Position numbers and translations under genes: made by a program. Positions 35,031 to 41,316 of a stretch of 64,000 bases of DNA are shown one piece after another. Numbering within the stretch: the first letter of the stretch is position 1; every line of letters starts with the position of its first letter. Under the pieces are notes generated by a model, which saw only the letters and a list, made by a program, of their open reading frames with translations, searched no databases and was not told the origin of the DNA. The DNA is taken from NCBI GenBank assembly GCA_900316395.1, contig ONCT01000002.1, positions 1 through 64,000 on the forward strand, read 5' to 3'. Source of the DNA: an uncultured Lachnospiraceae bacterium. GTDB taxonomy: Bacteria > Bacillota > Clostridia > Lachnospirales > Lachnospiraceae.

Positions 35031-36527
35031 TTATTTATTCTTAAGTCCCATTGCAATCTCAACAACCTTATATGCGCCGTCATAGATTCCAACTTTCTTA
35101 TTCTCCTTGATAGCCTCACACATTTCACCAAGAAGATGGTCGTCCTTTTGGAACATATCTACCATCTGTAAAATGTGTGGAACATCTCTACACTCTAATG
35201 TTCCATCGCCAATCTCTGCAGAGTGGATAGCACCCCACATCTCGTGCTTACCAACACGTCTGATGAATAGCTTAGGTACTGGGTAGAATGCAAGCTCAGA
35301 TGGCTTTGTAGCAAGAACATCACAGCTTCTCATAAGAAGGTTTGTAGCATAAACTGCTTCAAATATGTTCTTATGCCAGAATACATGTACACCACTTACA
35401 TCAGTATTAGGATCAAGAGCACTCTCGCAGAACTTTTCTGTCTCAGACCAATTGTCCATATGCTCTGTTGCCACATCTGCGATTCCCTGAATCTCCTGCT
35501 TCATCCAATCCCATACTTCCTTATAATCACCGATGTTAAGGTAGATTACAGCCTTACCTTCCTTAATCTCAGGCATAAGATGCTGAATGATTGGTGCGAA
35601 TAATTCTCTTTGAGCACCTGCTCCACCGATTGTAAGTAAGTATCTTGTAGCCTTGCCGTTAGCCTTACGAGCCATACGAGCATCACAGTCAGCTTCGATA
35701 TTAGATACAAGCTCGTGGTCAATATAGTGACCTGTATATACAAGTGCGTCGTTAGGCATTGGACTACATACCTTTTTCTTCTGCATTCCGTTACAGATTC
35801 TGTATCCCATGTAAGCGTTCTTACACTGAATAGCGTGAACTGCTCCCTCTGAGAAATGTAAAGCCATTGGCCAGTTGTCTGGAATAGCATTAACTACATA
35901 CTTCATTCCTGCTGCAACTGCTGCCTGTGCTGGCCATGCATGTGTTCCAATTACAGGCATATCCTTAGGAACGTTATTATATACCTGAGCCATAATCTCA
36001 GCATTTTTCTGATCACTACAGTTATATGCTAACTGACGGAATGTCTCATAGTTAACTGGCTCCCATACAAGCTTGTTGAAAATAGGATTCTTAGACCAGC
36101 GTGATCCAAGAGAATATAGCTCATTAGAAGCTGCAATTATCTTAGTACATGGTGTCTCGTTATATGAATTAAGGTCCATCCAATATGGCTTGTAGCCCAT
36201 TGACTTAGCACAGCTTGCCATAGCCATTGATATTCTGTAATGTCCGAATCCCATACGAATATTACCTACAATAATACCTTTATCCATATCGAATTCTGTT
36301 GTAGTAGGTAATTCCTTATCATAATGATTGTTAGTGTCAAGCTCACCTACAAGAATGTTGTCAACATCAAGAGAATCACCAATGTATGGGTTCTTCTGAA
36401 TAACTGTAGGATATGACTTGTTCTCATCATAATTCCATTTCTTGGCATTCTTCTTCTTGCCATTGCATGCCTTCCTGTAGGTGCTGTCAGGCATCACATT
36501 TCCAAATATAACTTTTGCTCTGTCCAT
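35031..36527 (-). CDS. GT-B-like protein of unknown substrate (MurG/MGDG-synthase resemblance)
   Basis: This 498-residue soluble protein has RMGFGHYRISMAMASCAKSMG near residue 90, like the GxGHxR loop of MurG and diacylglycerol glucosyltransferases, and YLLTIGGAGAQRELF near 300, like the glycine loop of the second GT-B domain. A C-terminal MRSCDVLATKPSELAFYPVPK recalls the nucleotide-sugar site. It lacks membrane segments. The N-terminal 80 residues are specific to it. Its place between GH2 and a GPH transporter suggests glycoside metabolism, but the substrate is unknown. It may be a glycosyltransferase or a UDP-sugar-using relative. Confidence 0.6.
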   Translation of the reverse strand: MDRAKVIFGNVMPDSTYRKACNGKKKNAKKWNYDENKSYPTVIQKNPYIGDSLDVDNILVGELDTNNHYDKELPTTTEFDMDKGIIVGNIRMGFGHYRISMAMASCAKSMGYKPYWMDLNSYNETPCTKIIAASNELYSLGSRWSKNPIFNKLVWEPVNYETFRQLAYNCSDQKNAEIMAQVYNNVPKDMPVIGTHAWPAQAAVAAGMKYVVNAIPDNWPMALHFSEGAVHAIQCKNAYMGYRICNGMQKKKVCSPMPNDALVYTGHYIDHELVSNIEADCDARMARKANGKATRYLLTIGGAGAQRELFAPIIQHLMPEIKEGKAVIYLNIGDYKEVWDWMKQEIQGIADVATEHMDNWSETEKFCESALDPNTDVSGVHVFWHKNIFEAVYATNLLMRSCDVLATKPSELAFYPVPKLFIRRVGKHEMWGAIHSAEIGDGTLECRDVPHILQMVDMFQKDDHLLGEMCEAIKENKKVGIYDGAYKVVEIAMGLKNK

Positions 36528-39051: not shown

Positions 39052-39621
39052 TTATTCTTTAATTATAATACCTTCAGTCAGAATATTAACAAGCTCTCTT
39101 AGCGCTTCCTCGTAAGTAATCTTATTCTTCTGAAGCTCATCGCCCATAAGAAATCTCTCCAAAGTCGCCTCGTGAGCTAACTGGAATATAACCCTGTTAA
39201 CATCCTTAATAAGACCTTGCTTAACGCCTTCATCCATCAGCTCTAAGGTCTGCTCCCAGCCATTCTCCAAGCGCTCATATAACCTTGCGTATGCCTTAGG
39301 GTATTTGCCCTTAAGCACATACAACTGGGTGAAGTCAACGCCAACATAAGCATCAGGAAGAACGCCTAATATGGTCTTAAGCTTCTCGATTAATGAAAGC
39401 TCTGGGTCATTTACAACCTTACTTTGTAATTCGTTAACAGAGTCAAATGTGTAATCAACCACTTCATATAATAGTGTACCCTTGTCAGGGAAGACAGTGT
39501 AAATTGTCTTCTTACTCATACCAAGTTCGTTGGCAAGGTCATCCATAGTGAACTTAACTCCCTTGGTCTTATACACATTCAAAGCCCCTTCTAATATCCT
39601 AGCCTTGTTATCTATTGTCAT
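39052..39621 (-). CDS. TetR-family transcriptional regulator
   Basis: ATG 39621 has a GGGAGGT site and gives 189 residues. FTMDDLANELGMSKKTIYTVFPDKGTLLYEV is a TetR helix-turn-helix at residues about 20-55; the rest is the helical ligand domain. It heads the carbohydrate operon and lies next to a palindrome (39658-39678), so it probably represses its own transcript and is released by a sugar or metabolite. Confidence 0.9.
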   Translation of the reverse strand: MTIDNKARILEGALNVYKTKGVKFTMDDLANELGMSKKTIYTVFPDKGTLLYEVVDYTFDSVNELQSKVVNDPELSLIEKLKTILGVLPDAYVGVDFTQLYVLKGKYPKAYARLYERLENGWEQTLELMDEGVKQGLIKDVNRVIFQLAHEATLERFLMGDELQKNKITYEEALRELVNILTEGIIIKE

Positions 39622-39657
39622 TTCATACCTCCCAGGCAAATAGTTCTGCTTTTAATA

Positions 39658-39678
39658 TGGAAACGATTTTAGTTTCCA
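39658..39678. promoter_or_regulatory. Candidate TetR operator
   Basis: TGGAAAC and GTTTCCA surround GATTTTA in a perfect 7-bp inverted repeat, 37 bases upstream of the TetR gene start. This is the size and place usual for TetR autoregulation. Confidence 0.65.
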
Positions 39679-39799: not shown

Positions 39800-40516
39800 C
39801 TACTTGCATATAGCACTAGATATCATACATATGAGGGTTACGCTTACAGGAATTGTCACTGTATCTATGCTTCCCTTAGAAACAAGTTCGACAAATGTTG
39901 CAACAACTGCTATTACAAGAGACTGTAGCATGACTCTTAGAACCGAATAGTCATATAACACGAGCATTGCAATTATTGATACTGCAAATGCTACAATAAA
40001 CATAGCTATACTTCCAGCATAAGTCTTATCATTATTCGCAATGCGAAAATGCTTCTTGCCTAATTTCTTACCAATCAGGGCAGCCGCCGCATCACCTAGT
40101 GCCCATACTAATAGCTCAATACATACTATTCCAATATCGCCATAAACTCCGCATACAATAATGATGCAAGCCTGTAGGCAACAATACTGTATAAAGCTTT
40201 TTCTTATTTCTCCGTCAGTTCGTTCAACGAAGAAGTCAGTGTATCCTTTTACCTTACTTATTAGTCGAAGACCTATATTCGCTCCTATGGCGAATATAAA
40301 TAATGAAAATGCTGCTATATAGAAATCAATAGCAAAATAAAGGCATAGTGGTGTCATGGCTATTGCTGTAAAATGCATTAGCTTGCGAAACACTTCTTCA
40401 TTAACCTTCGTCTTCTTTCTAATTAGCATTAAAAGAAGAACGATTACAAGAGTAATCGTTCCTGTTAATAGCACTGTTATTAATAAATTCTCTAATGCGT
40501 ATCCTTCTATCATCAA
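39800..40516 (-). CDS. CTP-dependent lipid kinase-like membrane protein (SEC59/VTE5/Dgk1 type)
   Basis: This 238-residue protein has about seven membrane segments. WALGDAAAALIGKKLGKKHF is the nucleotide motif of the phytol, dolichol and CTP-dependent diacylglycerol kinase family, and NDKTYAGSIAMF the following KTxxGSxAxF motif. FRKLMHFTAIAM is the first conserved segment. It would phosphorylate a lipid alcohol with CTP, perhaps polyprenol or diacylglycerol; the substrate is open. The start ATG 40516 lies two bases past the stop of the DnaA-domain-like gene, so both are co-translated. Confidence 0.82.
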   Translation of the reverse strand: MMIEGYALENLLITVLLTGTITLVIVLLLMLIRKKTKVNEEVFRKLMHFTAIAMTPLCLYFAIDFYIAAFSLFIFAIGANIGLRLISKVKGYTDFFVERTDGEIRKSFIQYCCLQACIIIVCGVYGDIGIVCIELLVWALGDAAAALIGKKLGKKHFRIANNDKTYAGSIAMFIVAFAVSIIAMLVLYDYSVLRVMLQSLVIAVVATFVELVSKGSIDTVTIPVSVTLICMISSAICK

Positions 40517-40518
40517 AC

Positions 40519-41199
40519 TTACCTGTTAAGTGAATTCTCCAAACCCTTAAGTGCTGCCTTAACGTCCTCAACATCTGCTACAAGTTCATCATCTTCCTTG
40601 ATCTTGTCGGCGATGCTCTTCTTAGCATTTGTTACAGACGTAGAACCAATTCCACCGAACTCTTCACAGATTGTAGCGTTGCTGGCCTTAAGCTCATTAG
40701 CACATACATAGATGGCAATTCTTCTTGCATTAGCAACATCTGCTTTTCTAGACTTAGATAAGATGTCTTCTGAAGATACTTCTAATACATCAGCCACGCA
40801 ATCAATTACATCCTGGCATGAAAGTGATGAAGCTACCTTCTTAGCTGGCGCCTTCTTAGTCGCTGTAGCTTTCTTAGTTGCTGTAGCCTTCTTAGGCTCT
40901 GCTTTCTTTGCTGGCGCTGCTGCCTTAGGTGCTGCTGAAGCCTTAGGTGCTGCTTGAGCTTCCTTCTTTGCAGGAGCTGCTTCATTCTTCGCTGGTGCAG
41001 CTGCCTTAGGAACAGTTATCTCTTCACTGAAGAACTCATCATCAAATTCCTTGAAATCATCTTCTATATCATCGAAGAATTCTGGCGACAATAAGTCGCT
41101 ATATTGTTTTTCCTTAAAATAATCGTAACATAATTTTGCTGCAACACCAGCTGCTGCAACAGTAGCAATTCCTGTTAATGCCTTGAACAATTTGCCCAT
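40519..41199 (-). CDS. Membrane-tethered DnaA-domain-IV-like protein
   Basis: An N-terminal hydrophobic helix (MGKLFKALTGIATVAAAGVAAKL) is followed by an acidic stretch, an Ala/Pro/Lys low-complexity linker (residues about 65-120) and a C-terminal domain: DVIDCVADVLEVSSEDILSK, ADVANARRIAIYVC, EEFGGIGSTSVTNAKKSI. These three parts match the helices of DnaA domain IV (xxVAxxxxVxxEDIxSK, RxxxxARQIAMYL, GxxFGGRDHTTVxHA). The DNA-contacting R, D and H of GGRDHTT are replaced by I, G and S, so a DnaA box is probably not its target. It is followed by a lipid-kinase-like gene. A nucleoid or membrane anchor is a guess. Confidence 0.65.
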   Translation of the reverse strand: MGKLFKALTGIATVAAAGVAAKLCYDYFKEKQYSDLLSPEFFDDIEDDFKEFDDEFFSEEITVPKAAAPAKNEAAPAKKEAQAAPKASAAPKAAAPAKKAEPKKATATKKATATKKAPAKKVASSLSCQDVIDCVADVLEVSSEDILSKSRKADVANARRIAIYVCANELKASNATICEEFGGIGSTSVTNAKKSIADKIKEDDELVADVEDVKAALKGLENSLNR

Positions 41200-41316
41200 T
41201 AACCTATCCCCCTTATGTAAATGTAATTATCAATCTATAAAACTACAACTTATATTCTATATATTACGGGGGATTAAGTCAAGGAAGGATGTGTTTGGGT
41301 TGACAAAACAAGCCTG

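Follow-up and report, generated by a model that had tools for sequence, protein, structure and literature searches.

In an uncultured Lachnospiraceae bacterium, a small gene combines a probable N-terminal membrane anchor with a diverged copy of domain IV, the DNA-binding domain of the initiator DnaA. The gene lies in the window, which is the whole stretch of 64,000 nucleotides that was analysed. We put at about one in two the probability that its product is a cytoplasm-facing, membrane-tethered DNA-binding protein with a specificity of its own, and no other reading fits the sequence better than the suggestion, in a preliminary description of this DNA, that the protein may tether specific DNA to the membrane. 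The observation behind that suggestion is confirmed as real: the open reading frame begins with ATG at 41199 and its stop ends at 40519, the protein ends in domain IV and carries no ATPase, and the described Ala/Lys/Pro spacer is present as a basic linker. The gene and its parts are as follows.

41254-41282, minus strand: candidate sigma-A-like promoter, TTGACT-17-TAGAAT, from a consensus scan (such sites in the region are not above shuffles)
41208-41214, minus strand: good Shine-Dalgarno sequence, AAGGGGG, similar in the orthologs
40519-41199, minus strand: open reading frame of 226 aa with membrane helix, acidic patch, K/A/P linker and DnaA domain IV; orthologs in 8/8 genus members
41125-41190, minus strand: predicted N-terminal membrane helix, residues 4-25, from dG_app; the model shows a helix at 3-36 with low confidence
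41020-41085, minus strand: acidic juxtamembrane segment, residues 39-60, from the alignment; F41, D44, D47, D48 and F49 invariant
40828-41019, minus strand: flexible Lys/Ala/Pro-rich linker, residues 61-124; pLDDT under 50, pI 9.4-10.5
40543-40824, minus strand: DnaA domain IV fold, residues 126-219, from Pfam PF08299, AF2 (pLDDT about 90) and 1J1V (Z 17.3)
40744-40755, minus strand: basic loop K149-S150-R151-K152, equivalent of E. coli K397-S400, invariant in 8 orthologs
40618-40650, minus strand: recognition segment IGSTSVTNAKK, residues 184-194, which replaces RDHTTVLHACR; fixed in the genus against 37 DnaA proteins

The C-terminal part of the protein is identified as DnaA domain IV by several comparisons. 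Pfam Bac_DnaA_C (PF08299) matches residues 129-196 with E=8.6e-15, well outside what chance would give; the score is 55 bits, where the cut-off lies at 31.5. All PDB sequence matches are DnaA proteins. In the AlphaFold model, built from 8 orthologs, the C-terminal domain has a pLDDT of about 90 and residues 55-123 lie below 50. VIA-align places model residues 126-219 on residues 374-467 of 1J1V with an rmsd of 1.1 Å and a Z of 17.3, and gives a Z of 18.1 against 3PVP; below the DnaA entries, Z drops to 5.9 or less. Therefore, the fold prediction that had been proposed as a check does return domain IV, with six helices in the model instead of the three-helix pattern described earlier. With the NCBIfam DnaA models, the match is limited to the last 100 or so model positions and scores far below cut-off. 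The protein thus belongs to the broad kind of ATPase-less DnaA-IV domain proteins, having domain IV on a separate polypeptide. As an initiator it is incomplete: the domain IV fold is there, the AAA+ ATPase domain III is absent, and from the base-contact set R399, D433, H434 and T435 it keeps R399 and has T or S for T435, with D433 and H434 replaced in 8/8 orthologs. Cys128, Cys166 and Cys178 of the domain are invariant across the 8 orthologs. A match to DUF6465 (E 0.002, below cut-off) was judged a composition match of the linker, and membership of that family was rejected.

The residues by which DnaA touches DNA are well described. In E. coli DnaA, R399 reaches into the minor groove, and P423, D433, H434, T435 and H439 are among the residues of specific recognition (PMC7561715, PMC5742627); an excerpt of a further article places R442 and K443 at the DNA backbone (PMC9638019). 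The 8 orthologs were compared with 37 DnaA proteins in an ungapped structural register (query number + 248). At the equivalents of K397, R399 and R407 every ortholog has K, R and R, and among the DnaA proteins R399 is kept in 35/37 and R407 in 37/37. K152, R160, K193 and K194 are further invariant basic residues, and Q408 is represented by R. The recognition stretch is different: position 432 is I, 433 is G or A, 434 is S or A, 435 is T or S and 436 is S or T, against K/R at 432 in 36, D at 433 in 34 and H at 434 in 35 of the DnaA proteins. Position 439 is N, as it also is in 10/37 DnaA proteins, 442 is K, and 443 is S, N or I, so that the K443 backbone contact is lost. The changed contacts of GGRDHTT noted earlier are thus borne out, and the change is fixed across the genus.

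With R399 and R407 kept and 432-434 exchanged, the minor-groove arm is retained and the major-groove code swapped for another conserved one. The exchange of R/K-D-H-T-T for I-G/A-S/A-T/S-S/T makes ordinary DnaA-box reading by this domain unlikely. Across the orthologs the stretch is conserved as I-G/A-S/A-T/S-S/T-V-x-N-A-K-K, as would be expected for a new code and not for decay. The domain is also under purifying selection, at a dN/dS of about 0.1. Its values by the Nei-Gojobori method run from 0 to 0.13, with small counts and some synonymous saturation, and in one pair of orthologs (G007/G006) the domain is at 0.09, the N-terminus at 0.24 and the linker at 0.17.

The N-terminal part probably forms a membrane anchor. 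In the 8 orthologs, the calculated dG_app of the helix lies between 0.4 and 1.2 kcal/mol. Six soluble proteins of the window reach 2.1 to 4.0 kcal/mol with their best segment, and two polytopic membrane proteins taken as control give -2.6 and -3.8 kcal/mol. The membrane helix proposed earlier therefore stands as a hydrophobic N-terminus present in 8/8 orthologs, and its strength is marginal. The linker behind the acidic segment varies in length and sequence among orthologs. In a model search with the N-terminus, 34 further genera out of the 200 sampled gave matches (E 1e-3 to 8e-9). The matching proteins are small, stand-alone membrane proteins of Lachnospiraceae that combine a TM helix with an FDDDFDDDF acidic tail. 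Because its N-terminal 50 or so residues resemble these proteins, if only over a short stretch and in part through composition, the gene has the look of a fusion in which a small membrane/acidic N-terminus of Lachnospiraceae type is joined to a diverged DnaA domain IV. Unlike the 226-aa protein, most of these small proteins end after 80-140 aa. A surface protein at L120 (G167:C3), with a TM helix, a Lys-rich stop and an acidic tail, likewise resembles the N-terminal module.

The protein exists beside an ordinary DnaA. The DnaA of this organism is encoded on another contig (C56), cut off at its N-terminus, and its orthologs in the genus are complete and carry the recognition helix 'KDHSTI'. The idea of a split initiator was rejected, and the protein is an additional one. 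Orthologs were found in 8/8 sampled species of the genus. A search of 397 genomes from 334 genera of the family gave no ortholog outside it, the other matches having frames of DnaA length. A scan of 84,980 GTDB species returned 7 loci in the genus (uncultured Lachnospiraceae, several from ruminants) and 11 other loci, of which the 5 examined were all full-length DnaA. In a class-wide search with the domain model, the other matches listed were all DnaA-sized frames of 441-620 residues. Thus, the protein appears to be genus-restricted by these searches, which used specific peptide patterns and sampled genomes and which a more diverged case could escape; the conservation across Lachnospiraceae that had been envisaged is confined to one genus among the 397 family genomes.

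The origin of the domain was also considered. In a tree of the domain, the orthologs group together as a single, long-branched clade, and since support for its neighbours is weak (0.67), the tree does not tell duplication from transfer. A tblastn search of phages and plasmids gave weak matches only, and as the three examined were two full DnaA proteins and one distant small HTH protein, no close source was seen there. An IMG/VR scan gave two matches, both weak. Other arrangements of domain IV were encountered in two places. A stand-alone 128-aa DnaA-IV protein is encoded at L095 (G139:C8, 1405-1791) in another Lachnospiraceae genus, apparently on a mobile element, next to a ClpP-like protease gene and a DnaA domain-I-like fragment. 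A 564-aa frame at L094 (G075:C41, match 110773-110976) is a different fusion, with a C-terminal DnaA-IV domain, two N-terminal hydrophobic stretches and a middle part that looks PolC-like by eye.

Two genes downstream complete the neighbourhood.

39800-40516, minus strand: polytopic membrane protein of 238 aa, starting at TTG 40516 or ATG 40513; no Pfam match
39052-39639, minus strand: TetR regulator (Pfam TetR_N), the next gene or the next but one in 8/8 genomes

The membrane protein gene follows 2 bp after the stop, so co-translation, as claimed earlier, is plausible here, but the gene is present in 6/8 genus members and missing in two. It carries motifs that we take to be like those of CTP-dependent polyprenol/phytol kinases. 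No Pfam or NCBIfam model matches it above cut-off, and its AF2 model is poor (pLDDT 48). As it is absent in 2/8 species and TetR is the common neighbour, a tight functional pair is not supported, and neither is an obligate pairing with a lipid-kinase-like gene, whose putative kinase identity is drawn from the motifs. Relatives of the membrane protein also occur fused behind a TauE/SafE-type transporter domain (L039 and L041, about 505 aa), and genus member G005 has one of these fusions as well as the short gene. Beyond TetR, a GH2 gene is found in the 7 genomes whose contig extends that far; other neighbours are MFS and similar genes. The inverted repeat TGGAAAC-7-GTTTCCA (39658-39678), in the gap that separates the TetR gene from the membrane protein gene, is a possible TetR operator. 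A 498-aa DUF6937-DUF6938 protein (35031-36527) is kept beside GH2 and TetR in the genus.

Multiple systems offer partial parallels. The domain shares with DnaA domain IV (PF08299; 1J1V, 3PVP) the fold, the R399 and R407 equivalents and a T435-type hydroxyl residue; it differs in standing without domains I-III, in having I-G/A-S/A for R/K432-D433-H434, in being acidic and in lying behind a membrane anchor. In the Alphaproteobacteria, GafY (first named HdaB) and the N-terminal domain of GafA are DnaA-IV-like, have no ATPase and act away from replication, according to excerpts of two articles (PMC9632790, PMC9638019). The likeness to this protein is one of described features, and these excerpts mention neither a membrane helix nor a basic linker. 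Among the neighbours listed above, no GTA genes were seen. Stand-alone DnaA C-terminal-domain proteins of phages and plasmids are likewise small, ATPase-less forms of domain IV, and many BFVD models match the fold (12-28% identity in structural matches), whereas this gene sits on the chromosome, is fixed in a bacterial genus and encodes a product with a probable membrane anchor. Rv3852 of Mycobacterium tuberculosis is a DNA-binding nucleoid protein anchored in the membrane (PMC8233713). Its likeness lies in the mode of action; its anchor is C-terminal and not N-terminal, and the NCBIfam model NF050153 scores 15.9 bits against a cut-off of 100. ATPase-less DnaA-IV proteins are therefore already known, from phages and from GafY/GafA. 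In limited queries of the open-access literature, no DnaA-IV protein was found that combines a membrane anchor, a long basic linker and a re-coded recognition helix fixed in a bacterial genus.

For a membrane-tethered DNA-binding protein, the following mode of action can be proposed. The N-terminal helix would anchor the protein in the membrane and leave the remainder in the cytoplasm. The basic disordered linker of about 60 residues would be long enough for the domain to make contact with the nucleoid, and it may also contribute some unspecific affinity for DNA. Domain IV would grip DNA through the kept minor-groove arm (Arg151 and Arg159), and the altered recognition helix would read a sequence other than the DnaA box. 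Selected chromosomal sites would thereby be held at or brought to the membrane, beside DnaA but independent of it. The fold and family, the R399/R407 equivalents, the conserved new stretch, the low dN/dS, the hydrophobic N-terminus and the invariant cysteines, which suit the cytoplasm, all point to such a tether. By analogy, GafY/GafA and Rv3852 offer precedents for its two halves, the former for a DnaA-IV domain that binds DNA independently of an ATPase and the latter for a nucleoid protein held in the membrane. Against it stand the acidity of the domain, whose 93 residues carry a net charge of -5 to -8 where the DnaA domains compared range from -2 to +4 with one exception (L092, at -8), the lost K443 contact, the failure to find a target site or an upstream motif, and the conservation pattern: in the chosen set of DNA-proximal positions, no excess of invariance was found (15/30 against 25/57 others, permutation p 0.37). 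The same acidity, absent conservation excess and loss of the Arg432, Asp433, His434 and Lys443 equivalents would suit a domain that has given up specific DNA binding and, held at the membrane, interacts with a protein, for example DnaA or some other component of the nucleoid. This is rather unlikely, since the Arg399, Arg407 and Lys397 equivalents and the further basic residues are invariant and the substituted stretch is conserved, with no drift.

Continued binding to DnaA boxes such as TTATCCACA, with oriC anchored at the membrane or with competition against DnaA, would draw on the fold, R399 and the T435-type residue, and on the absence of YabA from the genus, which could leave room for another regulator. 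YabA is a known DnaA regulator, but since C. difficile lacks it too (PMC7561715), little can be read from its absence. D433, H434 and R/K432, kept in 34-36 of 37 DnaA proteins, are replaced in all orthologs, and the window shows no enrichment of boxes (TTWTNCACA), with 6 where 8.5 would be expected, which makes this reading improbable; the titration of origin factors raised earlier is disfavoured because of the same replacements at Arg432, Asp433 and His434 in 8/8. The N-terminus could also be a cleaved signal or an outward-facing anchor that puts the domain to another use outside the cytoplasm. By eye, the alignment shows a short positive n-region, an Ala-rich weak hydrophobic stretch and small residues before the invariant K22, and the charges on the two helix flanks do not settle orientation. 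However, conserved hydrophobic and YD residues run past the possible cleavage site, the three invariant cysteines and the DNA-binding fold fit a cytoplasmic location, and in the surface protein L120 a TM-KK-acidic segment of similar composition probably forms the cytoplasmic tail; export is improbable. Local, membrane-bound regulation of the TetR, GH2 glycosidase and MFS sugar-transport genes is very unlikely. TetR and GH2 do follow consistently, the fold is an HTH, and excerpts on GafA/GafY show that DnaA-IV domains can activate transcription (PMC9632790, PMC9638019), but the protein has no sensory or extracellular domain, TetR is already an obvious regulator, and an alignment of ortholog upstream regions showed no shared motif besides the Shine-Dalgarno sequence and a -10-like stretch. 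A replacement of ParB was rejected as well, since ParB is present in 8/8 species of the genus.

This gut and rumen Lachnospiraceae genus thus has, next to its normal DnaA, a small conserved protein that is a putative tie between DNA and membrane, and it shows that selection can maintain domain IV in a chromosomal gene that lacks the initiator ATPase. Tentatively, and with some doubt, the genus may have recruited the initiator's DNA-binding domain as a dedicated tether to the membrane and given it a new DNA code, which would make a chromosome-to-membrane link unrelated to ParB, RacA, Noc and Rv3852. If the domain binds DNA, it would be a compact natural example of DnaA-box recognition that was re-coded and moved to the membrane, and chromosome-membrane attachment in Lachnospiraceae would become directly testable with one small protein.
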